A DNA stretch of 64,000 nucleotides from Herbaspirillum sp. alder98. Its GTDB lineage: Bacteria > Pseudomonadota > Gammaproteobacteria > Burkholderiales > Burkholderiaceae_D. The translations under genes were made by a program, and so were the position numbers. Location of the stretch: positions 186,001-250,000 of the forward strand of contig NZ_JAIUCY010000005.1 in NCBI RefSeq assembly GCF_020179755.1, in the 5' to 3' direction. This document shows positions 47,715 through 64,000 of the stretch, one piece after another. Position 1 is the first letter of the stretch; each line of letters opens with the position of its first letter. The notes under the pieces are model-generated. The model had not been told where the DNA came from. It saw only the letters and a program-made list of their open reading frames with translations, and ran no database searches.

Positions 47715-47730
47715 GCGACCTGCAACTTGC

Positions 47731-47756
47731 GGCCGCCCCTGGCAACCGGGGCGGCC
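47731..47756 (+). other. Intercistronic stem-loop between glyS and gmhB
   Basis: Perfect 9-bp arms GGCCGCCCC and GGGGCGGCC with an 8-nt loop. No T tract follows, so it may be a weak terminator, a processing site or an mRNA stabiliser. Confidence 0.6.
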
Positions 47757-47778
47757 GGTTCAAAGGGAAGCCACTCGC

Positions 47779-48336: not shown

Positions 48337-48362
48337 CCGGCACCCCTTCATGCCACTAGTGC

Positions 48363-49166
48363 ATGGGAGACAATATCTTGCGTTTTACTCTGATCCTGCG
48401 TTCTGCCGTCTATCTGGTGATCATGGCCATCGCCACCGTGGTGTGGTCGTTCGCCTGCCTGCTGTCGGCGCCGCTGTCCTATCCCAAGCGTTACTGGTGG
48501 ACCTCGCGCTGGAACGTCTTCGTGCTGTGGGCGCTGCGCGTCATCTGCGGCGTGCGCCACGAAGTACGCGGCATGGAAAACCTGCCCGACGCGCCGGCGG
48601 TGTTGCTGTCGAAGCATCAATCGGCATGGGAAACGATTTTCTACGTGATCCAGATGACGCGCCCGCTGGTGTTCGTGTTCAAGAAGGAACTGACCTACAT
48701 TCCCTTTTTCGGCTGGGGCATTGCGTTGTTGCGCATGATCCCGATCGATCGCAAGAAAGGCCGTGACGCCTTCGCCCAGGTGCTCGAGCAAGGTCGCCAG
48801 CGCCTGGCCAGCGGCCAGTGGATCATGATGTTTCCCGAAGGCACCCGCACCCAGGTCGGCAGCCAGGGCAAGTACAAGGCCGGCGGTTCGCGCCTGGCGG
48901 TCGAGACCGGCACCCTGGTGGTGCCGATTGCGGTCAACTCCGGCGAGTGCTGGCCCAAGGGTTCGTTCGTCAAGAAACCGGGCACCATCATCGTGTCGAT
49001 CGGCAAGCCGATCGCACCCGAAGGCATGACTGCTGCAGAGATGAACGAACGCGTCGAAAATTGGATAGAATCCGAGATGCGCGTGATTTCGCCGGCAGCC
49101 TATAAAAACAGCGCGCCCCGGCAAGCCGCCGCAGCCCCCGCTTCCCGCGATCCGGCACGGTCCTGA
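48363..49166 (+). CDS. plsC: 1-acyl-sn-glycerol-3-phosphate acyltransferase
   Basis: A 267-residue membrane acyltransferase making phosphatidic acid. An N-terminal hydrophobic helix (about 8-35) precedes the catalytic HX4(D/E) box seen as SKHQSAWETIF; here the acidic residue is Glu. The glycerol-phosphate-binding FPEGTR is present in MMFPEGTRTQVG. VPIAVNSGECWPKG is block IV. The C-terminal tail is Ala/Pro/Arg-rich and probably disordered. It starts 26 bp after gmhB. Confidence 0.92.
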   Translation: MGDNILRFTLILRSAVYLVIMAIATVVWSFACLLSAPLSYPKRYWWTSRWNVFVLWALRVICGVRHEVRGMENLPDAPAVLLSKHQSAWETIFYVIQMTRPLVFVFKKELTYIPFFGWGIALLRMIPIDRKKGRDAFAQVLEQGRQRLASGQWIMMFPEGTRTQVGSQGKYKAGGSRLAVETGTLVVPIAVNSGECWPKGSFVKKPGTIIVSIGKPIAPEGMTAAEMNERVENWIESEMRVISPAAYKNSAPRQAAAAPASRDPARS

Positions 49167-49196
49167 ACTTCATGTGAGATAACCGCTGCGACTGCC

Positions 49197-50144
49197 TTGA
49201 TACTGCTGCGCAAACCCAAAGCCAATCCCGACCAGCTGTCGCTGGACCTGTTCGCCATCGAGCCGGCCGCCCCAGCTGTCATCGTCCCCGACGCCGGTCC
49301 GGCCCTGCCGTCGCCGACCGAACAGACACCGCTCATCGTCACGCCCAATCCAGTGGTGCACGCCGCGCCGCTGCCGCCCAGCTTGCTGCCCGACACGGCG
49401 CCGTCGACCCGCCCGGCCGATGGCCGCCGCCGCATCGTCCTCGGCGAGCACACGCTCGACTATGCGTTGTTGCGTTCGAAGCGGCGCACCATCGGCTTCC
49501 TGGTCAGCGATGAAGGCTTGCGGGTGACCGCGCCGAAGTGGGTCACGCTGACCGAGATCGACAATGCGGTGCGCGAGAAGCAGCGCTGGATCCTGACCAA
49601 GCTCAATGAACGCCGCGAGCGTTCGGCACGCCGCTTGCAGCCGCAGATGCAATGGTGTGACGGCGCCACCCTGCCCTACCTGGGCGAAGACATCACGCTG
49701 CGCATTCGCAGCGGCCAGCGCGCCGCCGTGTTCCTCGATGAAGACACGCAGGAACTCAATGTCAGCCTGCCAACTGGTGCTGGCGAACAGCAATTGAAGG
49801 ACCGCGTGCAAGGCTGGCTGCAGGCGCGCGCCGAAGAACTGTTCGGTCGTCGCCTGATCGTCTATGCCGAGAAACTGGGCGTGACCTATCGCTCGTTCGC
49901 CTTGTCGTCGGCGACCACCCAGTGGGGCTCATGCACGGCCGATGGTCGTATCCGCCTGAACTGGCGGCTGATGCATTTCACCCTGCCCCTGATCGACTAT
50001 GTGATCGCCCACGAACTGGCGCACCTGCGCGAGATGAACCACGGTCCCCAGTTCTGGGCCACGGTGCAATCGATCTTTCCCGAGTTCGAGATGGCCAAGA
50101 AGGCCTTGCGCGACAGCGCACCGGAGACCCTGCCGATTTTCTAG
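49197..50144 (+). CDS. YgjP-like (DUF45) zinc metallopeptidase-type protein
   Basis: A 315-residue protein. The first ~90 residues are Pro/Ala-rich and likely disordered. The rest is the YgjP-like metallopeptidase domain, with zinc ligands in IAHELAHLREMNHGPQFW (HExxH plus a downstream His) and the family stretch TTQWGSCTADGRIRLNWRL. Proteins of this family are predicted metal-dependent hydrolases without firm substrates. The start is a TTG; no in-frame ATG lies near, so the exact N-terminus is uncertain. It directly follows plsC, as in many related genomes. Confidence 0.85.
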   Translation: MILLRKPKANPDQLSLDLFAIEPAAPAVIVPDAGPALPSPTEQTPLIVTPNPVVHAAPLPPSLLPDTAPSTRPADGRRRIVLGEHTLDYALLRSKRRTIGFLVSDEGLRVTAPKWVTLTEIDNAVREKQRWILTKLNERRERSARRLQPQMQWCDGATLPYLGEDITLRIRSGQRAAVFLDEDTQELNVSLPTGAGEQQLKDRVQGWLQARAEELFGRRLIVYAEKLGVTYRSFALSSATTQWGSCTADGRIRLNWRLMHFTLPLIDYVIAHELAHLREMNHGPQFWATVQSIFPEFEMAKKALRDSAPETLPIF

Positions 50145-50157
50145 GCGAAGGACACCA

Positions 50158-51156
50158 TCAGCCATCCACCTGGCGCCGCAGCGCACGCGGCGTGGTGCCG
50201 AACTGCTTGCGAAAGGCGCGGCTGAAATGGGATGGATCGTTGAAGCCCCAGCGTAGCGCAATGTCATACGAGCGCAGCGCCTGCGGCGCCAGCAGTTCGG
50301 CTCGGCAACGTTCCAGCCGTCGCCGCCATACGTAACGCATCAGCGACGTCCCCTCCTCTTCGAACAATTGATTCACATAGCGCGGCGACAACCCGGCGCC
50401 GGCTGCCACCATGGTGCTATCCAGTTCACAGTCGCCAAGGTGCAATTCGATGAAGCGCTTTACCCGCGCCAGTGACTGGATGCGGTTGCCGACGACACAC
50501 GACTCTGGCACGACCGCGCCATCAATGGCCAGCGCCAGCAGGTCGACGATCTGCCCCGACAGTTGCTCGTGGTGCTGCAACCCCAATTGCGATGCACTGC
50601 CCGCCACGCTGCGCACGAAACCCGATGCCAGCGCGCCGGCGCCCTGGCGGCCATCGATGACCCGGGCCGTGATGTGGCGCATGCGACCTACGCGCCCTTC
50701 CAGCGTCTGGCGCGGTATCTGCAGGATCAGCTTGCTGAAGTCTTCCGGAAAGATCAGGCGGTGCGGTCGCGCGCCGTCATAGATGGCCATGTCGCCGGCC
50801 AACAGCCGCGCCTCACGCCCGTCTTGCGCAATGAATTCGCTGCCCGCCAGCAACAGCACCGCAAAATAACAATCTTCGCTTTCGCTGCGGGCATCGCGCC
50901 CCACCCTGGTCACCGCCTGCGCCTTCGCGCTGACGCTGGTCAGGCGTAGCGCCGCATATTGGTGCGCCTGCATTTCTCCGAAGAAATCGGTGCCCAGGCG
51001 CGAGGCGATCTGCACTTCGGCAAAGCGTCGGCACACCATCTCGCGCCAGTAATCGACCCGCTCGTGCGGGCGCAGATGGCGGGTCGACAGATGCAGCTCG
51101 GCCGGCGCGGGCAGAGGCGCAGTTGCAAACGACGATGGCGATGAATCCTGAGGCAT
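50158..51156 (-). CDS. AraC family regulator (NitR-like)
   Basis: A 332-residue regulator with an N-terminal AraC-binding-2 type sensor (about 30-210; DYWREMVCRRFAEVQ) and a C-terminal double helix-turn-helix (about 230-330; GLSPRYVNQLFEEEGTSLMR, DIALRWGFNDPSHFSRAFRK). This architecture is shared with NitR, the activator of nitrilase genes in Rhodococcus. It is divergent from the nitrilase gene with a 214-bp gap. I infer that it activates the nitrilase/aldoxime dehydratase genes in response to a nitrile or aldoxime. The ATG at 51156 has GGAGA upstream; the frame extends 17 codons further without support. Confidence 0.9.
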   Translation of the reverse strand: MPQDSSPSSFATAPLPAPAELHLSTRHLRPHERVDYWREMVCRRFAEVQIASRLGTDFFGEMQAHQYAALRLTSVSAKAQAVTRVGRDARSESEDCYFAVLLLAGSEFIAQDGREARLLAGDMAIYDGARPHRLIFPEDFSKLILQIPRQTLEGRVGRMRHITARVIDGRQGAGALASGFVRSVAGSASQLGLQHHEQLSGQIVDLLALAIDGAVVPESCVVGNRIQSLARVKRFIELHLGDCELDSTMVAAGAGLSPRYVNQLFEEEGTSLMRYVWRRRLERCRAELLAPQALRSYDIALRWGFNDPSHFSRAFRKQFGTTPRALRRQVDG

Positions 51157-51193
51157 GACACGGTCTCCGACTGGCTGGAATGCTGCGTGTGAC

Positions 51194-51210
51194 GCAATGG
51201 TCTGCATTGC
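51194..51210. promoter_or_regulatory. Possible operator between araC-type gene and nitrilase
   Basis: Inverted repeat GCAATG-N5-CATTGC, 38 bp upstream of the regulator start and within the divergent promoter region. It is a candidate binding site for the AraC-type regulator or another dimer. Confidence 0.4.
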
Positions 51211-51370
51211 AGTGTGCGCACATCACGCCGGCAATACAAGCAAGAAGCATGTCACGAATGTGGTTTTTGGGGCCGATCTCCGTTTCAGTCAAATCGGCCG
51301 CCGTCCTGGTCAAGACCGCGCCGGCGCGCATGCCGATACTGCAACGGCCCATCAACCACAGGAGCCATGC

Positions 51371-52393
51371 ATGCAGCAATCCCCCTTGAAGGTGGCGGTC
51401 GTCCAGGCCGCCCCCGCCTTCCTCGATCTCGACGCCGGCATCGACAAGTCGATCGCACTGATCGCCCAGGCCGCGCACAGCGGCGCCAGGCTGATCGCGT
51501 TCCCCGAAACCTGGCTGCCCGGCTATCCGTTCTGGGTCTGGCTGGGCACGCCGGCCTGGAGCATCATGCGGGGCTTCGTCAATCGCTACTTCGATAACTC
51601 TCTGCAATACGACAGCCCGCAAGCCGATCGATTGCGACAGGCTGCGCGCCAGCACGGCATGCATGTGGTCATGGGCTTGTCGGAGCGGGCCGGCAGTTCA
51701 CTTTATATCGGGCAATGGATCATCGGCCCGGACGGCGTCGACATCGCCCGTCGACGCAAGCTCAAGCCGACCCACGTCGAACGCACCGTGTTCGGTGACG
51801 GCGATGGCAGCGACCTGGCGGTGCATGACCTGCCGATCGGCCGGGTCGGCGCGCTGTGCTGCTGGGAACATCTGCAACCGCTGTCGAAGTACGCCATGTA
51901 TGCGCAGAACGAACAGGTCCACGTGGCGGCCTGGCCCAGCTTTTCGCTGTACCAGCCGCTGGCGCATGCGCTCGGACCCGAGGTCAATAACGCCGCCAGC
52001 CGGCTCTATGCAGTCGAGGGTTCGTGCTTTGTGCTGGCGCCCTGCGCGACCGTGACGCCAGCCATGATCGAGCTGCTGTGCGACAGCGACGACAAGCGCC
52101 AACTGCTGGGCGCCGGTGGCGGCCACAGCGTCATCTATGGCCCCGACGGCGCGTCATTGTGCGCCACGCTGGCGCCGGATGAAGAAGGCCTGCTGCTGGC
52201 CGAACTCGACTTCAACGCCATCACCGTGGCCAAGTCGGTGGCCGACCCGGCCGGACATTACGCGCGCCCCGACGTCACCCGATTGTTGCTCAACCGCAGC
52301 CGCGCCCGTCCGGTGGAATACGTACTGCCGCCATGCGAACAGCTGGAGCCGGGCGCTGACCCGAGCGACGCCGCCGCCACCGATACCCCCTGA
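51371..52393 (+). CDS. Nitrilase
   Basis: A 340-residue nitrilase-branch enzyme that hydrolyses a nitrile to a carboxylic acid and ammonia. The triad is Glu in AFPETWLPGYPFW, Lys in RRKLKPTHVERTVFG, and the nucleophile Cys in GALCCWEHLQPLSK. The CWEH context and the FPE-W-PGYPFW stretch mark true nitrilases, not amidases. The ATG at 51371 has AGGAG 7 bases upstream. The next gene, 10 bp downstream, encodes an aldoxime dehydratase that supplies nitriles, so an arylacetonitrile such as phenylacetonitrile or indole-3-acetonitrile is a likely substrate (inference). Confidence 0.93.
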   Translation: MQQSPLKVAVVQAAPAFLDLDAGIDKSIALIAQAAHSGARLIAFPETWLPGYPFWVWLGTPAWSIMRGFVNRYFDNSLQYDSPQADRLRQAARQHGMHVVMGLSERAGSSLYIGQWIIGPDGVDIARRRKLKPTHVERTVFGDGDGSDLAVHDLPIGRVGALCCWEHLQPLSKYAMYAQNEQVHVAAWPSFSLYQPLAHALGPEVNNAASRLYAVEGSCFVLAPCATVTPAMIELLCDSDDKRQLLGAGGGHSVIYGPDGASLCATLAPDEEGLLLAELDFNAITVAKSVADPAGHYARPDVTRLLLNRSRARPVEYVLPPCEQLEPGADPSDAAATDTP

Positions 52394-52403
52394 GGAGAAT
52401 TCC

Positions 52404-53465
52404 ATGGAATCCGCCATCGCCGCTCACCTGCAATGCCCGCGCAGCCAGCCCAGCCGGGTCGATGCAGCCTATGAACCTTCCTATCCATGCTGGACCGCGC
52501 GCGCCGACCCCGCCGTGGGCCAGGTCGTGATGGGCTACTTCGGCGTGCAGTCGCGCGGCCCGGCCGCGCACGGCATCGCCTGTCGCGCATTGATGCAGAT
52601 CGTCGCCGGTTTTGCGGCAGCCGACGGTCCCGACCACCACGACCTGACGCACTATGTCGATGCCGCCGGCTACGACAACATGATCGCCATCGCCTACTGG
52701 CGCTCGCCGGCCGCATTTGCGCGCTGGCGCGACAGCGCCGCTGTCGCCGGCTGGTGGGACGACCCGGCGCGCCTGCAGGACGGCATCGGTTACTTCCGCG
52801 AAGTCCTCAGCCCGCGCACCGAGCATTTCGAAACCATGTTCAACACGCCAGACAATCCCGAAGGCATCGGCCGGGTAATGGATGGCATGAGCACGCCCTT
52901 TCGCGAGCATGGCTACTGGGGCTCGATGCGCGAACGCATACCGCTGGCGCAGACCGATTCGCTGGCGCCGGCAGGGCAATTGCAGGGCCGTGCCGATGCC
53001 GCGCAACCGGGGCGAATCCGCCTCGCCGGCCATACCAATGTGGCGGTGATCCGTTCCGGCCAGCAATGGAGCAGCACCACCGGACGCGAGCGCGAACTGT
53101 ATCTGCAGGAGATGGAACCGGTGCTGGCGCGCGGCATGCAATTCCTGCGCGACCACGGGCGCGATATCGGCTGCTACAGCAACCGCTACATGCACCACGT
53201 CGACGCCAGCGGCCAGCGCCAGGAAAAAAGCTTCGGCCTCAGTTTCTGGCGTTCGCTGGGCGACATGGAGCAATGGGCCGAATCACATCCCACGCATGTC
53301 GAAATCTTCGGCACCTTCCTGCGCATGGTGCAGGCGCTCGACTTCCAGCTGGCGCTGAGCGTGTATCACGAAGTGAGCGTGCTCAGGCCCGACGAGCAGG
53401 ATTACGAATACATCAACTGCCATCCAGGCACTGGCCTGTTGCCAGCCGCCACACAACATCGATAA
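52404..53465 (+). CDS. Aldoxime dehydratase (OxdB-like haem enzyme)
   Basis: A 353-residue protein matching phenylacetaldoxime dehydratases, haem enzymes that turn aldoximes into nitriles by loss of water. Typical stretches are GYFGVQSRG, DAAGYDNMIAIAYWRSP, GYWGSMRERIP, CYSNRYMHHVD and SHPTHVEIFGTFLRMVQ. The His residues of the last two segments correspond in position to the haem-ligand and catalytic His of known enzymes. Length agrees with OxdB (about 350). GAGGAG precedes the ATG. It is coupled to a nitrilase upstream, giving the complete aldoxime-nitrile-acid route. Confidence 0.92.
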   Translation: MESAIAAHLQCPRSQPSRVDAAYEPSYPCWTARADPAVGQVVMGYFGVQSRGPAAHGIACRALMQIVAGFAAADGPDHHDLTHYVDAAGYDNMIAIAYWRSPAAFARWRDSAAVAGWWDDPARLQDGIGYFREVLSPRTEHFETMFNTPDNPEGIGRVMDGMSTPFREHGYWGSMRERIPLAQTDSLAPAGQLQGRADAAQPGRIRLAGHTNVAVIRSGQQWSSTTGRERELYLQEMEPVLARGMQFLRDHGRDIGCYSNRYMHHVDASGQRQEKSFGLSFWRSLGDMEQWAESHPTHVEIFGTFLRMVQALDFQLALSVYHEVSVLRPDEQDYEYINCHPGTGLLPAATQHR

Positions 53466-53478
53466 CCAGGGAGAGAAC

Positions 53479-54384
53479 ATGCAACACCCATCATCACGTC
53501 ATCCATTGCGTCGTTTCGGCGCCCGCGTCCCGGCCGCCCTGCTGATCTGGGCGCTGGCACGTTCGGCCAGCGCGCTCGAAGTCACCGCGGGCGACTATGA
53601 AGCTTTTCCGGCCGGCAGCAACATCGCCATGATGTATCTCCAGTATGCGCAGCGCAGCGACTCCTTCGCCAATGGCAACAAGCTGTCCTCGAACTTCGAC
53701 ATGAACTCCAGCGTGGCGCTGGCGCGTTTCATCCATGTGGTCAAGCTGAGCGACAACGCAGTGCTCGATCCGCAGTTCATCCTGCCTTTCGGCCAGCTGC
53801 GCACCGGCGGCGACGCCAGCGTGTTAGGTAACGCCAGCGGCACGGGCGACCTCATCGTGGGGGCGCCGGTCAAGTATGTGCTCGACCAGAATACCCGCGA
53901 CGTCATCAGCATCGGGCCTTACCTGTACCTGCCCACCGGCAGCTACGACAGCAACAAGTTGCTCAACCTGGGGGAAAATCGCTGGAAGGCATTAGTGCAG
54001 CTGGCGTATATCCGCCACTTCAACGCGCAATGGGCACTCGATCTGGTGGGTGACGTGACCGTCCATGGCGACAACACCAACTACACCCCGGCGCACGCGA
54101 CATTGAAGCAAGCGGCGCGCTACGAAGTGCAGGCGCACCTGCGCTACAACCTGTCGCAGGCCACGGCCCTGTCGGCGGGCGTGGGGAGCATTCATGGCGG
54201 CCAGACCAAGGTCAACGGGGTTGACCAGAACGACCGCATCAACACGCAATACGCGCGCCTGACCGTAACCAGCTTCATCACGCCGACAGTGCAATGGCAG
54301 GTGCAATACGGACGCGACTTGTCGGTGGAGAATGGACTGAAGGAAAAGAACCGGATCAACCTGCGACTGGCCAAGTTGTTTTGA
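53479..54384 (+). CDS. Outer-membrane phenol_MetA_deg (SphA-like) protein
   Basis: A 301-residue exported beta-barrel-like protein. A signal peptide ends near SASA-LE. The body alternates polar and aromatic strands (YEAFPAGSNIAMMYLQYAQR, ISIGPYLYLPTGSYD, QWQVQYGRDLSVENG) and ends in LRLAKLF with a terminal Phe, as in outer-membrane proteins. It resembles the phenol-degradation 'meta' / SphA family, found beside aromatic catabolism genes and thought to assist uptake or sensing of hydrophobic aromatics. It is 13 bp after the aldoxime dehydratase, with GGGAGAG before the ATG, so it belongs to the same operon. Confidence 0.85.
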   Translation: MQHPSSRHPLRRFGARVPAALLIWALARSASALEVTAGDYEAFPAGSNIAMMYLQYAQRSDSFANGNKLSSNFDMNSSVALARFIHVVKLSDNAVLDPQFILPFGQLRTGGDASVLGNASGTGDLIVGAPVKYVLDQNTRDVISIGPYLYLPTGSYDSNKLLNLGENRWKALVQLAYIRHFNAQWALDLVGDVTVHGDNTNYTPAHATLKQAARYEVQAHLRYNLSQATALSAGVGSIHGGQTKVNGVDQNDRINTQYARLTVTSFITPTVQWQVQYGRDLSVENGLKEKNRINLRLAKLF

Positions 54385-54411
54385 TGAAGGTGGGGACGCT
54401 ATCTCTGTTGC

Positions 54412-54560
54412 ACGACGCTGGGTTCCTGCCTTCGCAGGAACGACGGGTTGGTGATAACTCCATCTCCGTCGTCCCGGCGTAGGCCGGGACCCAGTGACTT
54501 AGGCGGCGCACCTGCCGTCGGTGGAAAGACGCTGGGTCCTGACTTTCGTCAGGACGACGG
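54412..54560. repeat. REP/BIME-like array of three palindromic units
   Basis: Three palindromes in alternating orientation: about 54414-54446 (GCTGGGTTCCTGCC...GGAACGACGG), about 54464-54496 (CCGTCGTCCCGGCG...GGGACCCAGTG) and 54525-54560, the last identical to the unit at 39733-39768. They fill the gap between the convergent SphA-like and livF genes and may serve as terminator-like or mRNA-protecting structures. Confidence 0.9.
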
Positions 54561-54572
54561 TGGATGACGGAG

Positions 54573-55367
54573 TTACTTGCGCGCCAACCCCAGATAACTT
54601 TCGACGATCTGCTTGTCGGCGGCCAGCGCATCGGCCGGTCCTTCCTTGACCAGCTCGCCCATCTCCAGCACATAACCGTAATCGGCCACCTGCAAGGCCG
54701 CACGCGCATTCTGTTCGACCAGCAAGGTGGCCACGCCGGTGTCGCGCAGTGCGCTGATGATGCCCAGGATTTCCTTGGTGATCAGCGGCGCCAGTCCCAG
54801 GCTCGGCTCGTCCAGCATCAGCACTTGCGGCTTGGCCATCAACGCACGACCCACCGCCAGCATCTGGCGCTCGCCACCCGATAAAGTGCCGGCTTCCTGC
54901 TTGCGCCTTTCCTTCAGGCGCGGAAACAGCGAGAAGACCGAATCGAGCTGGTCCAGATAGTCGCGCTCCCGGTTGCGATGCCGTTTGTAGGCGCCCAGTT
55001 GCAGGTTGTCCTCGACACTCATGGTGGCGAACAACTCGCGCTTCTCGGGCACCAGCGACAGACCGCGCGCCACCCTTTCCTCGACCTCCAGGCTGGACAG
55101 GTCATGCCCCTGGTAGAGCACCCGTCCACTGGCCGTTCCATTGACCGGCAAGGCGCCCATGATGGCGTTGAGCAGGGTCGACTTGCCGGCGCCATTGGGA
55201 CCGATCACGGTCACGATCTGGCCGGCGCGCAACTTCAGCGCGGCGCCGTGCAAGGCCTCGACCTTGCCATAGCGGGCCGACAATCCGTTCACTTCCAGCA
55301 CCACCGGTGCGGCCGGCGCTGCGGCAGCGACTTCGGCGTGGGCGATCATGGTTTCGGCATTCATCAT
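54573..55367 (-). CDS. Branched-chain-type ABC transporter ATPase (LivF-like)
   Basis: A 264-residue ATP-binding protein with Walker [10 protein letters not shown], the ABC signature LSGGERQML and Walker [14 protein letters not shown], of the HAAT (LivF) family. The ATG at 55367 overlaps the stop of the upstream permease/ATPase gene as ATGA and has GGAGGAG before it, so translation is coupled. It is the last gene of the minus-strand unit with paaZ and a periplasmic binding protein, which argues for import of aromatic acids and not amino acids (inference). Confidence 0.93.
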
Positions 55368-57154
55368 TGCGCTCCTCCAAGATAGGCTTCCAGGACGGCC
55401 GGATGCACCTGGATCTGGGCCGGGGTTCCTTCGGCGATCTTGGTGCCGAATTCCATGACCACGATGTGATCGGTCAATTGCATCACGAAGTCCATGTCGT
55501 GCTCCACCAGCAGCACCGCCATGCCCTCGCCGCGCAACTTGGCCAGCAGCGCCGAGAGCGCCTGCTTTTCTTTCAGGCGTAGACCCGCGGCAGGTTCGTC
55601 CAGCAGCAGCAAGGCCGGATCGCAGCACAATGCGCGCGCAATCTCCAGGATCCGTTGCTGCCCCAGCGCCAGGCTGCCTGCCTGGCGATACAGCATGTCG
55701 CCCAGGCCCACCCGTTCGAGCTGGCGGCGCGCCTCGGCCAGAATCTTGGCTTCTTCGCGACGATTGGCGCGCAGGATGCCGGCCAGGATACCGCCCTGGG
55801 GCGCGAAGTCACCGCGCCGGAAGGCGCCCATGGCAGCGTTCTCCAGCACCGTCATGCCGGGCACCAGGCGCACGTGCTGGAAGGTGCGCGCAATGCCACG
55901 ACTGGCGATCTCGCGTGACGACAGGCCGGCAATCGATTTGCCGCGATAGTCGACCTTGCCGCTGGTGATCGACAATACGCCCGTCACCAGGTTGAAGGTG
56001 GTCGACTTGCCGGCGCCGTTGGGGCCGATCAGGCCGACGATCTCACCGGCCTTGACCGAAAAACTGACGTCATTGACCGCCACCAGTCCGCCGAACTGCT
56101 TGCGGGCCGCCTCTACCTCAAGGATGACTTCGCCACCGGCCGGCTTGGCCGATTGCGCCAGCGCCGGCGCATCGTCCGGCGCCCGGACCGGCGAGCGGTT
56201 GCCCAGGCGCGCCTGGATGAACGGCCACAAGCCCTCGTTGGCGTATTGCAGGAAGATCACCAGCGCAATGCCGAACACGATGGCTTCGAAGTTGCCGCCC
56301 GTGCCCAGTACGCCCGGCAGCCACTCCTGCAGGAAGTTGCCCAGCAAGGTGATCAAGCCGGCGCCCAGCAACGCGCCCCATACGTAACCGGCGCCGCCCA
56401 CCACCACCATCAGCAGATAATCGATGCCGTACTTGAGGCCGAACGGGGTCGGGTTCACCGCGTGCTGCAAATGGGCGTACAACCAGCCGGAGATACCGGC
56501 CAGGATGGCGGCATAGACGAAGATGACGATCTTCATGCGCGCGGTATTGACGCCCATCGCTTCCGGCATCACCTGGCCGAACTTGAGCGCACGCACTGCC
56601 CGCCCGGCGCGTGAATTGAGAAAGTTCTGCACCGACAGCAGCGCCAGGATGGCGACGATCCAGATCAGCACGTACATCGAAGGACCATTCGAAAATTCGA
56701 AGCTGCCCAGCGAGATCGAGGGAATGCCACCCAGCCCGTCATGCTTGCCCAGCGACTCCAGGTTGCCGAACAGGTAATACAGCGACAGGCCCCAGGCGAT
56801 CGTGGACAACGGCAGATAATGGCCCGAGATGCGCATGGTGACGGCGCCAATCAGCAAGGCCGAAACGCCGGTGATGGCGATACCGGCCAGCAGGCCGATC
56901 CAGGGCGACACCGCGTACTGCGTGGTGAGATAAGCGGTGGTGTAGGCGCCGATACCGACGAAGGCGGCCTGCCCGAACGAGGTCAGGCCGGCGACGCCGG
57001 TCAGCAGCACCAGGCCCAGCGCCACGATGCTGTACAGACCAACGTAGGAAAGCAGCGTGATCCAGAAGGGCGGCACGCCCAGTTGCGGCAACAGCAGCAC
57101 GACGGCGAAGAAGACCAGCGGGATGGCGGCACGCCAGGATGATGGAAATGACAT
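55364..57154 (-). CDS. Fused permease-ATPase of branched-chain-type ABC importer (LivM-LivG)
   Basis: A 596-residue fusion. Residues about 1-320 are a LivM-type permease with about nine membrane helices ([28 protein letters not shown] region, [20 protein letters not shown]). After a linker (about 320-345) comes a LivG-type ATPase with Walker [10 protein letters not shown], signature [15 protein letters not shown] and Walker [12 protein letters not shown]. LivM and LivG are separate in E. coli; the fusion is known in some importers of proteobacteria. I use the ATG at 57154, placed after the livH stop with GAGGGAG upstream, although in-frame Met codons occur 8 and 10 codons earlier inside livH. 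Confidence 0.93.
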
Positions 57155-57164
57155 GGCGGCTCCC

Positions 57165-58217
57165 TCAGGCTTCTTCATCGACATGGTTGCTGGTGAGCGA
57201 ACGCCACAGCAACACCGGGATGATCACGGTAAACACGATGAGCTCCTTGAACGAACTGGCCCAGAACGACGAAAAGCTCTCGACCAGGCCGACCGACAAT
57301 GCCCCAAGCGCGGCAATCGGGTAACTGGCCAGTCCACCGAAGATGGCGGCCACGAAACCCTTGAGCGCAATCAAGAAGCCGGACTCGTAGTTGACGATGG
57401 TGAACGGTGCGATCAGGATCCCGCACAACGCGCCGATGCCGGCGGCCATGGTGAACGACAGCTTGCCGGCCTGGTTGATGCCCACGCCCACCAGCCGCGC
57501 GCCCAGGCGGTTGACGGCGGTGGCGCGCAAGGCCTTGCCCGACAGCGTGCGCCCGAAATAGAAATAGATGGCCGTGATCAGCGCGGCTACGGTGACCACC
57601 ACGATCACGCTCTGGCCCGACACCATGCTCTCGCCCAGGTTGAATTGCAGGTCGGTGAACGGCTTGGTGTTGGAGCCTTCGGGTCCGAACATGAACAGGC
57701 CCAGCCCGACCATCGCCAGGTGCACCCCGAGCGAGGCAATGAGCAACACCAGGATGCTGGCATGCGCCAGCGGCTGATAAGCGACGCGGTAGATCATCGG
57801 GCCCATCGGCACCACAATGGCCAGCGTCAATCCGATCTGCGCCAGCATCGGCAAGTCTTGCAGCGCGACCGTGCGCGTGAGCGCATACACGGCCAGCGGA
57901 AACACCAGGTACTTGCCCAGCAATAGCGGCAGCCGCGCCGGCAGTCGCGTGCGGCGTTCGGCCACCCGCAGGTTGTCGATCAGTTCGACCGCCAGGGCCA
58001 CCAGGCCCAGCGCCACCAGCAGCAGCGCCGTCAACGGCGCCTGGCCGGCCTGCATCGCCGCCAGCGTCAGCGCGCCGAAGGCCACGAACTCGCCTTGCGG
58101 CAAGAAGATGACCCGGGTCACCGAAAATACCAATACCAATGCCAGCGACAGCAGGGCATAGATCGCGCCCGTCGTGATGCCGTCCTGGATCAGCACCGTC
58201 ATGATGCTTGCGTCCAC
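57165..58217 (-). CDS. Branched-chain-type ABC transporter permease (LivH-like)
   Basis: A 350-residue inner-membrane permease of the HAAT family with [36 protein letters not shown] and [20 protein letters not shown]. It is longer than E. coli LivH because of a hydrophilic and hydrophobic insert at about 80-130 ([20 protein letters not shown]). The start is GTG at 58217 with GGGAGGAAG at good spacing; the next in-frame ATG is five codons later and too far from that site. It lies between paaZ and the LivMG fusion gene. Confidence 0.93.
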
Positions 58218-58310
58218 TTCTTCCTCCCGGTTTTGCCATCATGGCGGCGTCGATTTCCCGCGACGCCGCCATGGGGTATGACTGCAGATTGCCCTCGACT
58301 GCGGCTTTTA

Positions 58311-60362
58311 TTAGTTTTTCTTTGATACCAGCGTCAGGATGTCATACGACGCCACCAGCTCGCCGTCCTGGTTACTCACTTCGACGTCCCACGCCACGAC
58401 GCCCTGGCCGACGCCATTGACATCGGTCTTGTTGCGATCGATCTTGCGCTTGCAGGTCAGGCGCGCCTGGATGGTGTCGCCGATCCCGACCGGCTTGACG
58501 AAGCGCAGCGTGTCGAGGCCGTAGTTGGCCAGCACCGGTCCCGGCGCGGGCGACACGAACAGCCCGGCCGCCGCCGACAGCACGAAGTAACCGTGCGCGA
58601 TGCGCTTGCCGAAGACCGATTCCTTCGCGGCGATCTCGTCGAAGTGCATGTAGAAGAAATCGCCCGAGAGACCGCCGAAATTGACGATGTCGGCTTCGCT
58701 GACGGTGCGCCGGTGGGTCAGCAGCGAGTCGCCGATCTGCAGGTCTTCGAAGTGATGGCGGAACGGGTGGATGGCCGATTCCCGCACCGCCGCGCCACGC
58801 ACGTGCTCGCCGACGACGGCGGCCAGCATGGTGGGCGAACCCTGTACCGCGGCGCGTTGCAGGTAGTGCTTCACGGCGCGCGAACCACCCAGCTCTTCGC
58901 CGCCACCGGCGCGCCCGGGGCCGCCATGCTTCAACTGTGGCAAGGGCGAACCGTGGCCGGTCGACTCGACCGCGGCTTCGCGGTCCAGGATCAGCAGGCG
59001 ACCGTGCCAGGCAGCGGCTACCGGAATGGCCTTGGCCGCCACCGCCGGGTCGCGCGTGACCAGGCTGCCCACCAGGCTGCCTCGACCGCGTGCGGCCAGG
59101 TCCAGCGCGCCGTCGAGGTCGTCGTAGGCAATCAGGGTGCTGACCGGGCCAAAGGCCTCGACGTCGTGCACCGCTTCATTGGCGCTGTCGCGACACAACA
59201 GCAGGGTCGGCGCGAAGAAAGCGCCATCGGAGACGCCATCGCCCTGCGGCGAAAAACCGTCGCTGGCGCCAAATACCTGTTCGGCGCCCTGCTTGAGCCG
59301 CGCCACCCGTTCTGCCACATCGTGTTGCTGCGCCTTCGATGCCAGCGGCCCCATGCGCACGCCCTCTACCGACGGGTCACCCACCACCGTCTTGGCCAGG
59401 CGCGCGCGCAAGCGCTCGGCGACCGCATCGATGTGCTGGCGCGGCACGATGGCGCGGCGGATGGCAGTACATTTCTGGCCGGCTTTGGTGGTCATCTCGC
59501 GCGCCACTTCCTTGACGAAGAGATCAAACTCTTCATCGTCAGGCGACACGTCGGGACCAAGAATGGCGCAGTTCAGCGAGTCGGCTTCGGCATTGAAGGG
59601 AATCGACTGGCGAATCAGGTTGGGGTGCACCCGCAGCTTGGCGGCGGTATCGGCCGAACCGGTGAAGGTCACCACGTCCTGCCCCTGCAGGCGATCCAGC
59701 AGGTCGCCGGTGGAGCCGATCACCAGTTGCAGGCTGCCAGCCGGCAGCAGGCCCGATTCATTGATCAGGCGCACGGCGGCTTCAGTCAGGTAACTGGTGG
59801 CGGTGGCCGGCTTGACGATGCAGGGCATACCGGCCAGGAAGGTCGGCGCAAACTTCTCGAGCATGCCCCAGACCGGAAAATTGAACGCATTGATATGCAC
59901 GGCCACGCCACCACGCGGCACCAGGATGTGGGTACCGGCGAACCGGCCCTGCTTGCCCAGCGGGATGGCCGGTCCTTCGTGAACCAGGTTGGACGACGGA
60001 AACTCGTTGCCGCCAACGCTGGAATAGGCAAACAGCGTGCCGCTGCCGCCTTCGATGTCGATCCAGCTATCGGCGCGGGTGGCGCCGCTGTGGGCCGAGA
60101 CTGTGTATAACTTTTCCTTGTGCTCGTTGAGGTACTTGGCGAGCGCCTTGAGGATCGCGGCGCGCTGCTGGAAATCCAGCTTCAGCAAGCCAGGCAGGCC
60201 GGTGCGACGCGCATGGTCGAGCGCTTCGCCGAAGTCGATCGCTTCGTTGTGGGTGCTGGCGATCTGGCGTCCGTTGACGGCGCTGTGCAACGCCTGGGCC
60301 GGGGTTTCACCGAACCAGCGGCCGGCGATGAAGCTCTGCAAGAGCGTGGATTGTGCAGTCAT
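58311..60362 (-). CDS. paaZ: Bifunctional oxepin-CoA hydrolase / semialdehyde dehydrogenase PaaZ
   Basis: A 683-residue fusion of an aldehyde dehydrogenase (about 1-520) and a MaoC-type (R)-hydratase (about 540-683), as in E. coli PaaZ (681 residues). It opens oxepin-CoA and oxidises the semialdehyde product in aerobic phenylacetate breakdown. Dehydrogenase residues are Glu in FNAEADSLN and Cys in KAGQKCTAIRRAI. The hydratase site is in GDFFYMHFDEIAAKESVFG and KRIAHGYFVLS. The ATG at 60362 gives the expected N-terminus; the 29 codons upstream are out of character. Its place between a periplasmic binding protein and permease genes, not beside paaABCDE, is notable. Confidence 0.95.
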   Translation of the reverse strand: MTAQSTLLQSFIAGRWFGETPAQALHSAVNGRQIASTHNEAIDFGEALDHARRTGLPGLLKLDFQQRAAILKALAKYLNEHKEKLYTVSAHSGATRADSWIDIEGGSGTLFAYSSVGGNEFPSSNLVHEGPAIPLGKQGRFAGTHILVPRGGVAVHINAFNFPVWGMLEKFAPTFLAGMPCIVKPATATSYLTEAAVRLINESGLLPAGSLQLVIGSTGDLLDRLQGQDVVTFTGSADTAAKLRVHPNLIRQSIPFNAEADSLNCAILGPDVSPDDEEFDLFVKEVAREMTTKAGQKCTAIRRAIVPRQHIDAVAERLRARLAKTVVGDPSVEGVRMGPLASKAQQHDVAERVARLKQGAEQVFGASDGFSPQGDGVSDGAFFAPTLLLCRDSANEAVHDVEAFGPVSTLIAYDDLDGALDLAARGRGSLVGSLVTRDPAVAAKAIPVAAAWHGRLLILDREAAVESTGHGSPLPQLKHGGPGRAGGGEELGGSRAVKHYLQRAAVQGSPTMLAAVVGEHVRGAAVRESAIHPFRHHFEDLQIGDSLLTHRRTVSEADIVNFGGLSGDFFYMHFDEIAAKESVFGKRIAHGYFVLSAAAGLFVSPAPGPVLANYGLDTLRFVKPVGIGDTIQARLTCKRKIDRNKTDVNGVGQGVVAWDVEVSNQDGELVASYDILTLVSKKN

Positions 60363-60406
60363 GGCAATTCCGGTTGGCGGCAAGATGCTTGCCGTTGAGG
60401 CTGAAA

Positions 60407-60438
60407 CGAAGCGCGCCGGTCGTGGCCGACGCGCTTCG
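60407..60438 (-). other. Intercistronic stem-loop between binding-protein gene and paaZ
   Basis: Perfect 9-bp arms CGAAGCGCG and CGCGCTTCG with a 14-nt loop, 12 bp after the binding-protein stop. No T tract follows. Such hairpins commonly protect the upstream message and raise binding-protein levels above those of the membrane parts. Confidence 0.6.
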
Positions 60439-60449
60439 CGGGCATGCAA

Positions 60450-61595
60450 TTACGGTTGGTATTTCCAGGCGCCGTTGACGATCTTGACCATCACCGAGGC
60501 GCGTTGATCCAGGCCCAGATGATCGGTGGCCGACATGTTGTACACGCCATGCACGCCGTTGACGTTCTTGGACGCTTCCAGCGCGTCACGCAACGCAGCG
60601 CGGAATTCAGGCGTGCCAGGCTTGCCCTTCTTCAGTGCTTCGGGGGCCGCCGCCTGCAGCAGCAGGCCGGCATCCCAGGCGTAGCCGCCGAACAGCGAGA
60701 CGCTGTCCTTGCCATGGGCCGCTTCGTACTTGGTGGTGTAGTCCAGCGCCACCTTGCGGATCGGGTTGTCGGCCGGCAGTTGCGCCGCCACCAGCACCGG
60801 GCCGGCCGGCAGCAATGTGTTATCCAGCACCTTGCCGCCTACGCGCAGGAAGTCGGCATTGGCCACGCCGTGGGTCTGGTAGATCTGGCCCTTGTAGCCG
60901 CGTTCGGCCAGGGCACGCTGCGGCACCACGGCGGGCGTGCCAGAGCCGGCGATCAGGATCGCGTCAGGCTTGGCCGAGATTAACTTCAGCGCTTGCGCGG
61001 TGGCCGAGGTGTCGGTACGCGAGAAGCGTTCGTTGGCGACCACTTCGACCTTCTTCAACGCTGCGGCCTTGCTGAATTCGGTGTACCAGCCTTCACCATA
61101 GGCATCGGAAAAACCGATGAAACCGATACGCTTGTAGCCGCGCGCCACCATGTCCTGGACGATCGCCAGCGACATCATGATGTCGTTCTGGGGGGTCTTG
61201 AAGACCCACTTCTTCTTGGCATCCATCGGCTCGACGATGCGCGCCGAGGCGGCCAGCGAGATCATCGGGGTCTGCGCTTCGGAGACCACTTCGATCATCG
61301 ACAGCGAATTGGGCGAGACGGTCGAGCCGATGATCAGGTCGACGTTGTTTTCGGTGATGAAGCGACGGGTGTTCTTGACTGCCTGGGTGGTGTCGGAGGC
61401 ATCGTCGAGGACGATGTAGTTGACCTTCTGGCCGGCGATGCTGGTCGGCAGCAGGGCAATCGTGTTCTTCTCGGGGATTCCCAGCGAGGCGGCCGGGCCG
61501 GTGGTGGACACGGTGACGCCGACGTTGATGTCGGCCATTGCGGCGCCGGTGCAACCCAGCAGGACCAACGCAGTCAGCTTGCGAACGAATTTCAT
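60450..61595 (-). CDS. Periplasmic substrate-binding protein (LivJ-like)
   Basis: A 381-residue ABC-importer receptor. The signal peptide is MKFVRKLTALVLLGCTGAAM, cut near AMA-DI. The mature protein has the periplasmic-binding type I pattern: VGVTVSTTGPAASLGIPEKN, VDLIIGSTVSPNSLSMIEV, IGFIGFSDAYGEGWYTEF. Members of this group near aromatic degradation genes bind aromatic acids. It belongs to the minus-strand unit tetR-binding protein-paaZ-livH-livMG-livF, so phenylacetate or a related aryl acid is the likely ligand; this is an inference from context. Confidence 0.92.
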   Translation of the reverse strand: MKFVRKLTALVLLGCTGAAMADINVGVTVSTTGPAASLGIPEKNTIALLPTSIAGQKVNYIVLDDASDTTQAVKNTRRFITENNVDLIIGSTVSPNSLSMIEVVSEAQTPMISLAASARIVEPMDAKKKWVFKTPQNDIMMSLAIVQDMVARGYKRIGFIGFSDAYGEGWYTEFSKAAALKKVEVVANERFSRTDTSATAQALKLISAKPDAILIAGSGTPAVVPQRALAERGYKGQIYQTHGVANADFLRVGGKVLDNTLLPAGPVLVAAQLPADNPIRKVALDYTTKYEAAHGKDSVSLFGGYAWDAGLLLQAAAPEALKKGKPGTPEFRAALRDALEASKNVNGVHGVYNMSATDHLGLDQRASVMVKIVNGAWKYQP

Positions 61596-61670
61596 GAACA
61601 GTCTCCTTGGTTGATGTTCTTGTCACTTCTCGTGGCGCCGGCTGGCCTGCCGGGCGCTGCACGTCTTGCC

Positions 61671-61711
61671 GAAATGACGCCACCACCTCTCAGGGGAGTT
61701 CACGTCATTTC
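61671..61711 (-). other. Inverted repeat at the end of tetR
   Basis: Arms GAAATGACG (61671-61679) and CGTCATTTC (61703-61711) are perfect complements with a 23-nt loop; the second arm includes the tetR stop codon. It may separate the expression of the regulator from that of the downstream binding protein. Confidence 0.45.
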
Positions 61712-62325
61712 TTGTTCTTTGCTTCCGGCATCAGGTCGACTGCACCGATGCCGCCAAACAGCAGGTCCGACACCACCGAGGCCATGCGTTCATGGGTCAG
61801 CTCGCCGTCCGGCTTCAACCACATGAACATCCAGTTGATCATGCCGAACAACAGCATGGTCAGCGGCTTGGCCATGCGCGCCGCTTCCAGTTCCGGACGC
61901 ACGCCGACCATCGCCTGCGCCATCGCTTCGACCACCCGGCGCTCGCCGGCAAAGATGCGCTCCTGGTCCTGCGGCGCCAGGAAGCGCACGTCTTCGGTCA
62001 GCACCCGATGCTCGTTCTGGGCATCCGAATACTCTTCCACGAAACGCTGCACCATCATGCGCAGGCGCGGCTCCGGCGCCAGGTTCAGTTGCTCGACTTC
62101 GTCGACCAGCGCGCCCAGGCGTTCGATGTGGCCTTCGCAGATGTACATCAGCAACTGCACCTTGTCCGACACATAGTGATACAGCGCCGCCTTGGACAAG
62201 CCGCATGCTTCTGCCACGCCGTTCATCGAGGTGCCGGCAAAACCATTGCGCGCGAACAGCGCCGCTGCCTGCTCGATGATGTGCTCGCGCTGATTGTCAA
62301 ATCCTGCTGCACGCTTGCGTGGCAT
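61705..62325 (-). CDS. TetR family regulator, PaaR-like
   Basis: A 206-residue TetR-type repressor. The DNA-binding domain is at about 10-60 (AAALFARNGFAGTSMNGVAE, ACGLSKAALYHYVSDK). The ligand domain follows (DVRFLAPQDQERIFAGERRV, MLLFGMINWMFMWLKPDG). It resembles PaaR-type regulators of phenylacetate genes in Betaproteobacteria, which release DNA on binding phenylacetyl-CoA. The ATG at 62325 has AAGGA 8 bases upstream; a TTG at 62352 and an ATG at 62334 are less well placed. It heads the transport/paaZ unit and faces paaY; a perfect palindrome lies between (62595-62608). Confidence 0.9.
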   Translation of the reverse strand: MPRKRAAGFDNQREHIIEQAAALFARNGFAGTSMNGVAEACGLSKAALYHYVSDKVQLLMYICEGHIERLGALVDEVEQLNLAPEPRLRMMVQRFVEEYSDAQNEHRVLTEDVRFLAPQDQERIFAGERRVVEAMAQAMVGVRPELEAARMAKPLTMLLFGMINWMFMWLKPDGELTHERMASVVSDLLFGGIGAVDLMPEAKNKK

Positions 62326-62591
62326 GGCGTTCATCCTTATGTTTTTTTGCAAAGCCGTGATTGTGCCGCAAATCAGGGGCCAATCGCGACATCGCCTGTG
62401 CAGCGCCTATGAATCGCGCGCTAGCGCGAACCCGGCGTCCCGGCGTGCTGTGTTGTCGCTTGGATGCAAAAAATCTGGAATGACCGTCGTTGCCCTGCCA
62501 GACCACTACTGCGCATTGCTACTGCACCTGCAAAATCATTCGCTGCCTTGACCTGATCGGTGCTCATGCACAAAAAAACTTCAAAACATTA

Positions 62592-62620
62592 TTGACCGAC
62601 CGGTCGGTTGAAATTATTAT
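62592..62620 (+). promoter_or_regulatory. paaY-paaA promoter with embedded PaaR-type operator
   Basis: TTGACC (62592-62597), a 17-bp spacer and TATTAT (62615-62620) form a good sigma-70 promoter toward paaY. The perfect palindrome ACCGACCGGTCGGT (62595-62608) covers part of the -35 box and the spacer. A TetR-type dimer bound there would block RNA polymerase. The same palindrome can also serve the leftward tetR promoter. Confidence 0.75.
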
Positions 62621-62650
62621 TCCCTAAAAACCGGCGTCAGGCAAATGGTT

Positions 62651-62677
62651 TTTTCGGCATCCAGAGGATGCCGAAAA
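62651..62677 (+). other. 12-bp hairpin in the paaY leader
   Basis: Arms TTTTCGGCATCC and GGATGCCGAAAA are perfect complements with a 3-nt loop. In the plus-strand transcript it lies about 30 nt after the likely start and 113 nt before paaY. No T tract follows, so mRNA stabilisation is more likely than termination. Confidence 0.55.
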
Positions 62678-62790
62678 GCACCCCGACCAAGACAAGAAAA
62701 GCCCGCCGAGCGCAGCGAAAGCCCCGCGTGGACTGTGACCATTGAAGCGCTACAGTCCGCCAGAGCAGCCACGCAACCAAGGAGACCGCA

Positions 62791-63393
62791 GTGCCGTGCT
62801 ATTCGATAGAAGGTGTGATCCCGGTAGTGGACCCGAGCGCCTACGTGCATCCGACTGCCGTGCTGATCGGCGACGTCATCATCGGCCCCGATTGCTATAT
62901 CGGCCCGGCCGCCTGCCTGCGTGGCGACTTCGGCCGCATCGTGCTGGAGCGCGGCGCCAACGTGCAGGACACCTGCGTGGTGCATGGCTTTCCCGCGCAC
63001 GACACGATCATTGAAGAGAACGGCCATATCGGCCATGGCGCCGTACTGCACAGCTGCATCGTGCGACGTGACGCCCTGGTGGGCATGAACGCGGTGGTGA
63101 TGGACGACGCCGAGGTAGGCGAACAGGCCATCGTGGCGGCCAGCGCATTCGTGCGCGCCGGCATGAAGATCGCCCCCCGTACGCTGGTGGCAGGCGTGCC
63201 GGCCAAGCAGATCCGTGAGCTCAGCGCGCAAGAGATCGCCTGGAAGCAGGAAGGCACCCGCACCTATCAAGACCTGACCCGGCGCTGCCTGAGCAGCATG
63301 CAGGAAGTGCAACCCCTGGCCGCCGTCGAAGCCGGGCGGCCGAAATTGGCGGCGCCCTTCGTCGAACCACTGATCGCGGCCAAGCAGGCCTAG
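62791..63393 (+). CDS. paaY: PaaY, gamma-carbonic-anhydrase-like hexapeptide-repeat protein
   Basis: A 200-residue left-handed beta-helix protein with hexapeptide repeats (VLIGDVIIGPDCYIGPAACL). The His ligands of gamma-class carbonic-anhydrase-like proteins are in CVVHGFPAHDT and GHIGHGAVLH. PaaY is associated with phenylacetate degradation and acts as a thioesterase that removes dead-end CoA esters. The GTG start has AAGGAG at ideal spacing. It is the first gene after the palindrome-controlled promoter and is followed by paaA after 93 bp. The C-terminal ~25 residues (PLAAVEAGRPKLAAPFVEPL) are an unusual Ala/Pro tail. Confidence 0.92.
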   Translation: MPCYSIEGVIPVVDPSAYVHPTAVLIGDVIIGPDCYIGPAACLRGDFGRIVLERGANVQDTCVVHGFPAHDTIIEENGHIGHGAVLHSCIVRRDALVGMNAVVMDDAEVGEQAIVAASAFVRAGMKIAPRTLVAGVPAKQIRELSAQEIAWKQEGTRTYQDLTRRCLSSMQEVQPLAAVEAGRPKLAAPFVEPLIAAKQA

Positions 63394-63486
63394 CAATACA
63401 ACAATCCCCGGTCGATGCCCATGGCAGGCCGGCCAGGTCGCGTGCCGCCGGCACGACCACCGAATCATTTCATGGAGGACAACACC

Positions 63487-64000
63487 ATGTACGCACAACT
63501 GGTAGAGACGGGCCTGAAGAAGGTCCAGGGCATGGAAGACATGAGCCCCGAAGAGCAGGCGTTCCAGGCCCGCATCGACGAGGGCGTCAAGATCGAACCC
63601 AAGGACTGGATGCCGGACGCCTATCGCAAGACGCTGGTACGCCAGATCTCGCAGCATGCCCACTCCGAGATCGTGGGCCAGTTGCCCGAGGCCAACTGGG
63701 TCACGCGGGCGCCGACGCTGCAGCGCAAGGCCGTGCTGCTGGCCAAGATCCAGGACGAGGCCGGCCACGGCCTGTACCTCTACAGCGCCGCCGAAACCCT
63801 GGGCGTGTCGCGCGACCAGTTGCTGGGCGACCTGCATTCGGGCAAGGCCAAGTATTCGAGCATCTTCAACTACCCCACCCTGTCGTGGGCCGACATGGGC
63901 GCCATCGGCTGGCTGGTGGATGGCTCGGCCATCATCAACCAGATTCCGCTGTGCCGCTGTTCGTACGGCCCCTACGCCCGCGCCATGGTGCGGGTGTGCA
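63487..64000 (+). CDS. paaA: Phenylacetyl-CoA epoxidase subunit PaaA (3' partial)
   Basis: The first 171 codons of the catalytic subunit of the ring 1,2-phenylacetyl-CoA epoxidase, cut by the right window edge. The N-terminal region reads [20 protein letters not shown] and [40 protein letters not shown] contains an ExxH di-iron ligand pair. The ATG has GGAGG 8 bases upstream. The enzyme forms the ring epoxide that PaaG isomerises to oxepin-CoA, the substrate of PaaZ encoded on the opposite strand here. paaBCDE should follow beyond the window. Confidence 0.96.

Follow-up and report, generated by a model that had tools for sequence, protein, structure and literature searches.

A NitR-type aldoxime-nitrile gene cassette adjoining the phenylacetate locus of Herbaspirillum sp. 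alder98

Gene content of the locus and operons of the same kind

A 64,000-nucleotide stretch of the 5.34-Mb genome of Herbaspirillum sp. alder98 (the window; G000:C22:186001-250000, G000 being the source genome) carries an aldoxime-nitrile gene cassette next to genes of the phenylacetate (paa) pathway. The cassette is a NitR-nit-oxd operon of a published kind, with a nitrilase gene (nit) and an aldoxime dehydratase gene (oxd) beside an AraC-type regulator. The operon parts are familiar, and their neighborhood with paa has been seen once. Positions are window coordinates unless stated otherwise; fetched loci and genomes are numbered with L and G, respectively.

The cassette is compact (50158-54384) and holds four genes. 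An AraC/XylS-family, NitR-like regulator (50158-51207, minus strand; PF14525, 91 bits; PF12833, 78 bits) is divergent from nit, which encodes an arylacetonitrilase-like nitrilase (51371-52393, plus strand; PF00795 (CN_hydrolase), 186 bits against a cut-off of 23). Next come the genes for a heme aldoxime dehydratase (Oxd; 52404-53465, plus strand) and for an outer-membrane-type protein of the PF13557 family (53479-54384, plus strand; 123 bits, cut-off 22). The Oxd covers the whole PF13816 profile (1-310 of 310) with 316 bits against a cut-off of 25, placing it in that family. Open reading frame (ORF) calls and profile matches bear out the genes and gene order that an earlier annotation of the window (the original prediction) had listed.

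An imperfect inverted repeat (54466-54560; 35-nt arms, 77% complementary), which we take to be REP-like, lies between the convergent cassette and liv operon; the stop codons of the cassette and the liv/paa unit are 188 bp apart. The liv genes encode an ATP-binding cassette (ABC) importer (LivF, fused LivM-LivG, and LivH; 54573-58217, minus strand, by profile matches). PaaZ, the bifunctional ring-opening enzyme (58311-60449, minus strand; TIGR02278, 990 bits, cut-off 563), is encoded between these permease genes and an upstream gene for a periplasmic substrate-binding protein (Peripla_BP_6; 60450-61595, minus strand; PF13458, 140 bits). A TetR-family, PaaR-like regulator (61705-62352, minus strand; PF00440 and PF17932) has the PaaR operator in its promoter region. 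On the plus strand follow PaaY (62791-63393; TIGR02287, 320.7 bits, cut-off 319.6) and PaaA (63415-64000; TIGR02156, 532 bits, cut-off 280). The latter is the first gene of a paa cluster that continues past the window and was scored as a whole gene in L057, since it extends beyond the window end.

In this continuation, PaaA, PaaC, PaaE, PaaH, PaaK, and the 3-oxoadipyl-CoA thiolase score above curated cut-offs, and PaaF, at 349 of 371 bits, falls marginally under its own. No profile match was obtained at the strict threshold of 1e-60 for the ORFs that occupy the places of PaaB and PaaI, and PaaD and PaaG were left out of the scoring. Epoxidase subunits, PaaZ, PaaK, beta-oxidation genes, and the PaaR operator identify the locus as a paa locus under PaaR.

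Bacillus sp. OxB-1 and Bradyrhizobium have described clusters of nitrilase, NitR (AraC family), and oxd genes; the clusters described from Pseudomonas and Rhodococcus contain nitrile hydratase (PMC8955678). OxB-1 converts phenylacetaldoxime to phenylacetate by the nitrilase route, with expression induced by the aldoxime (PMC4342420). With the clusters of OxB-1 and Bradyrhizobium sp. LTSPM299, the cassette shares the AraC-type regulator, the nitrilase gene upstream of oxd, and the sequence aldoxime to nitrile to acid; unlike them, it has a PF13557 gene after oxd, an Oxd nearer to OxdA and OxdRE, and adjoining paa genes (PMC8955678). The pathway logic of the Oxd-nitrile hydratase-amidase clusters of P. 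chlororaphis B23 and Rhodococcus is alike, with a nitrilase in the window locus instead of their nitrile hydratase plus amidase (PMC8955678).

The order regulator-nit-oxd-PF13557 recurs in Herbaspirillum sp. 3R11 (L013) and Janthinobacterium sp. PC23-8 (L015), where the AraC regulators in the same position are 65% and 58% identical, respectively, to that of the window. An Oxd at E ≤ 1e-60 was found in 7 of the 392 genomes searched in the family. Forty-two loci of close Oxd relatives were collected with at most 10 kb on each side, several of them cut by contig ends. A nitrilase gene lies directly upstream of oxd in 37 of these, the remaining five being Pseudomonas loci; in Pseudomonas L047, and also in L080 (from G141), oxd is accompanied by genes for an amidase and both nitrile hydratase subunits (alpha and beta). 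The nit-oxd loci of Variovorax and one Xenophilus (L014, L016-L044, L046, L051, L053, and L054) also have the nitrilase directly upstream of Oxd, and the two enzymes are 59-63% and 63-68% identical to those of the window. Their AraC-type regulator, however, is just 30-34% identical where found, and the fetched DNA holds no paa genes and no relative of the PF13557 protein at the thresholds used.

Aldoxime dehydratase, nitrilase, and outer-membrane-type protein

The original prediction had called the dehydratase OxdB-like, which names the wrong subclass. Compared with solved structures, the Oxd is closer to OxdA (3w08, 404 bits) and OxdRE (3a15, 401 bits) than to OxdB (7f2y, 206 bits). Judged by sequence, it is best described as a relative of OxdA and is not filed as OxdA itself. 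The window Oxd holds Arg178, Ser218, and His322 at the positions aligned with the catalytic set of OxdA (alignment counted by eye), and its His298 presumably corresponds to the heme ligand, His299 in OxdA. The catalytic residues of OxdA are Arg178, Ser219, and His320 (PMC5391958). The Oxds that have been studied as proteins include one from Variovorax paradoxus and a 346-residue one from Pseudomonas sp. RIT-PI-q (PMC11568032). The Oxd of Pseudomonas sp. RIT-PI-q in L047, matched to the published protein by strain and length, likewise has 346 residues and is 59% identical to that of the window.

The best solved relative of the nitrilase is NitA (6zby, 428 bits), which we take to be the nitrilase of strain EBC191. 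The window enzyme harbors Glu46, Lys130, Glu137, and Cys164, with a tryptophan directly after the catalytic cysteine. The catalytic set of the P. fluorescens EBC191 arylacetonitrilase is Glu48, Lys130, Glu137, and Cys164, and the A. faecalis nitrilase likewise has a tryptophan after its catalytic cysteine (PMC6930498). All catalytic residues looked at are present, and both proteins appear to be enzymes of the kinds that had been named. Their substrates are most likely arylaliphatic, such as phenylacetaldoxime. The Variovorax-like arylacetonitrilase Nit09 (1005 bp; PMC7228900) was considered as a possible match to the oxd-linked V. boronicumulans nitrilase of L053 (1035 bp from the first Met); the two were not equated because their lengths differ.

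The source genome holds three oxd genes, and the other nine Oxd-bearing genomes of the genus hold one each. The second locus lies about 132 kb upstream on the same contig (L055:2854-10547; C22 about 100.9-108.5 kb) and comprises, in order, genes for a PF13557 protein, an amidase, nitrile hydratase alpha and beta, a CobW-domain (P47K-type) protein, Oxd, and an AraC regulator. Its Oxd is OxdA-like (606 bits to 3w08). The third locus (L056:1842-16030; C25 about 185.8-200.0 kb) comprises a divergent oxd, an amidase, two Liv-type ABC transporters, and a nitrilase. Its Oxd scores 173 bits with OxdB and 162 bits with OxdA, a slight lean toward OxdB, and its nitrilase has plant NIT4 as its closest relative (385 bits). 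The locus also includes two small genes of similar appearance (97-438 and 9733-10470) that may be regulators; Pfam gave no match for the second at 1e-8. With its three different aldoxime-nitrile loci, the genome would be a good system for separating their substrates.

Genes for PF13557 proteins are found repeatedly, in various arrangements, in the vicinity of oxd genes of the OxdA class. Two of the three PF13557 matches in the source genome are near oxd. Across the genus, a PF13557 gene lies within 5.9 kb (start to start) in all six loci whose oxd is at least 48% identical to that of the window, and within 39 kb in none of the six loci with a divergent oxd (29-34%), four of which are on contigs, some short, that lack PF13557. 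Among the 42 loci of Oxd relatives, seven have a protein of this type (L013, L015, and five Pseudomonas loci); this count, made by similarity to the window protein, may overlook distant members. The gene stands after oxd, before it, or about 5 kb away beyond the amidase, and in L077-L079 it is on the other strand. Eleven aligned members have many invariant columns in common.

The protein may serve as a channel for aldoximes or nitriles. The words "outer membrane" are absent from two reviews (PMC8955678 and PMC11568032), and among the publications listed by a literature search none was recognized that links an outer-membrane protein to aldoximes or nitriles, as judged by titles and the starts of abstracts.

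Linkage to the phenylacetate genes and regulation

The original prediction had treated oxd-nit-liv-paa as a contiguous island and proposed a search of related genomes for conserved linkage. Full-length paaZ is present in 19 of the 34 genomes of the genus, with pieces only in two more. The paa loci of 17 of the 18 other genomes with full-length paaZ (all but G027) were taken at 13-19.5 kb each; L067 ends 1.8 kb beyond livF. The genes for PaaZ, the TetR regulator, PaaY, and PaaA occur together in all 17, and the binding protein and Liv genes lie beside paaZ in 16 (the exception being L064). None of the 17 has oxd, nit, or a PF13557 gene nearby. Twelve of these genomes lack any Oxd genome-wide, and the remaining five have oxd on another contig (G003, G013, and G019) or more than 1 Mb from paa (G011 and G012).

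The reverse comparison agrees, as PaaA, PaaY, PaaR, and a true PaaZ occur in none of the 42 Oxd-relative loci; L045 offers a 29% aldehyde-dehydrogenase match only. Even where the same cassette is found, paaZ is on another contig (L013) or about 145 kb away (L015, taking G318 and G394 as one genome). Among the relatives examined, oxd-nit is therefore next to paa only in the source genome. A single oxd-nit-liv-paa island as an evolved unit is not supported, since among the genomes examined the linkage occurs in one only and the cassette lacks the exact PaaR operator. A striking gene neighborhood can be taken as evidence of an evolved pathway unit only if relatives have it too. Among the publications listed by literature searches, with subscription journals mostly outside them, none joining oxd-nit to paa genes was recognized from titles and the starts of abstracts. 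As a separate observation, three Variovorax nit-oxd loci (L029, L041, and L051) carry genes for a fused LivM-LivG-type importer (48-59% identical) some 4-7 kb downstream but no paaZ.

The nearest relative by these genes is G015, whose paaZ is 97% identical. It aligns to window positions 47628-50144 (92%) and again from 54580 on (90-91%), but nothing in its locus matches 50145-54579, where it has 3.9 kb of other sequence. At this spot (L058:13325-16886), G015 encodes a DUF2515 protein and two mutually similar ORFs without a Pfam match. A type VI secretion system-immunity-like role was considered for these genes, but Pfam gave only DUF2515 for one of the three ORFs scored. The site that the cassette occupies in the window appears to be variable. 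Of the 19 genomes with full-length paaZ, G000 and G015 alone have the paa block next to the gene at 49197-50144 (metallopeptidase-like, named by eye). Because relatives lack the linkage, G015 differs at the spot, and this flank adjacency is confined to G000 and G015, the junction looks young and variable, and the linkage is most likely a recent, one-genome neighborhood.

The cassette and paa appear to be under separate regulators. The PaaR operator ACCGACCGGTCGGT (62595-62608), located between paaR and paaY, is the only exact match in the genome; two sites with one mismatch are found on C11 and C25, and a backwards control pattern gives 27 matches per strand. All 17 other genus paa loci carry the operator exactly or with one mismatch. 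In B. cenocepacia, these 14 bp are part of an inverted repeat needed for negative control, as shown by mutation (PMC2770484). The PaaR-regulated paa genes of that bacterium likewise have a TetR regulator, and their 14-bp operator is identical to the one here; the gene arrangement differs, and a Liv-type importer is within the block in Herbaspirillum sp. alder98 (PMC2770484).

The exact operator is absent from the regulator-nit intergenic region. Weak matches with at most three mismatches are in excess in the window (11 versus a mean of 4.2 and a maximum of 9 in 100 shuffles), and two of them, with three mismatches each, fall at the cassette, at 51809 inside nit and at 54439 behind the PF13557 gene. 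These were set aside because of their non-promoter positions and not because of their count. The single genome-wide occurrence of the exact operator is the ground on which PaaR control of the cassette was rejected. The one-mismatch site on C11 (G000:C11:857540-857553) lies about 3.6 kb from another CN_hydrolase gene (C11:853231-853986).

A candidate operator for the NitR-like regulator is a 13-bp tandem repeat in the regulator-nit intergenic region (51280-51313, plus strand), in which CCGTTTCAGTCAA is followed after 8 bases by CCGTCCTGGTCAA, a direct repeat with 21 bp from start to start. It is kept in L013 and L015, where the surrounding sequence is mostly not kept. Shuffles of the intergenic regions reached the repeat score in 50 (window), 147 (L013), and 50 (L015) of 1000 cases, and the best pair in L013 is another one; shuffle support is weak, so the case for the repeat rests on its conservation among the three loci. 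With no mismatch, the repeat is found only in G000 and G019 of the 34 genus genomes, by a pattern derived from the very loci it finds. Eight further matches have two mismatches, versus four for the backwards control.

A clear half-site also precedes the PF13557 gene in Pseudomonas L048 and L050, and in L080 this gene is preceded by a pair spaced 22 bp (by eye). A widened half-site pattern gives 4 matches versus 0.33 expected in the 42 loci, which is not independent evidence because the pattern was widened after the Pseudomonas match had been seen. One half-site in the paaR/paaY intergenic region of G015, which lacks the cassette, is taken as chance (L058:5101). No comparable tandem score was obtained in the 14 scanned loci of the Variovorax/Xenophilus/Rhizobium set, nor in L055 and L056. 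The NitR site of A. faecalis is described as palindromic, so the direct repeat of the window does not agree with it (PMC6265244).

No regulator site shared by the cassette and paa was found, the exact PaaR operator being at paaR/paaY only and the top tandem repeat at nit. Between 50100 and 54700, no sigma-70 promoter-like sites were found, and the one terminator-like site is inside nit and not above shuffles.

Proposed working and alternative explanations

Oximes are plant-made defense chemicals. The cassette is probably a self-contained NitR-type aldoxime-nitrile operon that was recently placed between a G015-type flank and the ordinary paa-liv locus of the genus. In the proposed working, an aldoxime or nitrile would enter through the PF13557 outer-membrane-type protein, Oxd would dehydrate the aldoxime to the nitrile, and the nitrilase would hydrolyze the nitrile to the acid and ammonia, with the AraC-type regulator presumably governing the cassette. 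Were phenylacetaldoxime the substrate, the product phenylacetate could be taken over by PaaK and the epoxidase and drained by the paa pathway.

Such metabolic coupling of phenylacetonitrile through phenylacetate to paa is plausible on the basis of the gene content, and it requires no gene linkage. PaaZ scores above its cut-off in 34 of 41 genomes with close Oxd relatives (the genome of L023 left out; a raw share), suggesting that coupling without linkage may be common.

Several points weigh against the reading of a recently placed operon for arylaliphatic substrates. The Oxd falls under the cut-off of the OxdA equivalog model NF050090 (474 of 600 bits), the nitrilase is under the cut-offs of both NCBIfam nitrilase models that it matches (221 of 503 and 52 of 500 bits), and the substrate is inferred throughout. 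The G+C content of the cassette (64.1%) is like that of its surroundings (63.9%), so composition does not point to a recent arrival, and a case for horizontal transfer by composition was dropped for want of a signal. Loss of the cassette in G015 is an alternative to its gain in G000, and the data fit either.

The best-surviving alternative, although an unlikely one, is that the operon serves general detoxification or the scavenging of nitrogen, acting on plant aldoximes and nitriles that are aliphatic or of mixed types and yielding an acid that does not enter paa. The position of the Oxd nearer to OxdA and OxdRE than to OxdB would suit it. The nitrilase, however, is nearest to NitA, presumably the EBC191 enzyme, and the genome has a second locus, OxdA-like and equipped with nitrile hydratase, for other substrates. 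OxdK, which is about 90% identical to OxdA, prefers isovaleraldoxime, but OxdRG, which is of the OxdRE kind, has a preference for arylaliphatic aldoximes (PMC8955678), and the EBC191 nitrilase is reported as an arylacetonitrilase (PMC6930498).

Somewhat less probable still is a selected catabolic island, in which linkage to paa would be kept so that phenylacetaldoxime or phenylacetonitrile could serve as a carbon and nitrogen source via paa. The products fit the pathway, the main paa genes are present, and the two units converge across only 188 bp. The weak PaaR-like matches exceed those of every shuffle, with two in or just after the cassette and neither in a promoter. Against such selection, the linkage is found in a single genome among those examined, and the cassette and paa have separate operators. 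The share of Oxd-bearing genomes with PaaZ (34 of 41) also speaks for an island, yet co-occurrence alone says little because 19 of 34 genus genomes have full-length paaZ.

Conversion of indole-3-acetaldoxime to the auxin indole-3-acetic acid is very improbable, for although OxdB and OxdRG accept indole-3-acetaldoxime (PMC8955678) and the arylacetonitrilase Nit09 turns over indole-3-acetonitrile with 34% relative activity (PMC7228900), phenyl substrates are preferred according to both sources, OxdK has very low activity on the indole oxime (PMC8955678), and no examined sequence feature points to indole.

Beyond the reading of a recently placed operon, two leads arise in the under-studied chemistry between plants and bacteria. 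One is the candidate operator of NitR-like regulators, and the other is the PF13557 protein, which may be an outer-membrane protein dedicated to taking up aldoximes or nitriles. A bolder and doubtful generalization is that, in several Proteobacteria, aldoxime operons come with an outer-membrane channel of their own (PF13557) and have an AraC-type operator in common, whether they use nitrilase or nitrile hydratase, and that the new junction of such an operon with a phenylacetate locus might here be the first step of an island leading from plant oximes to central metabolism.

Elsewhere in the window, the region 25905-28985 encodes a large repetitive protein that is autotransporter-like by eye and lies in a part of lower G+C content.

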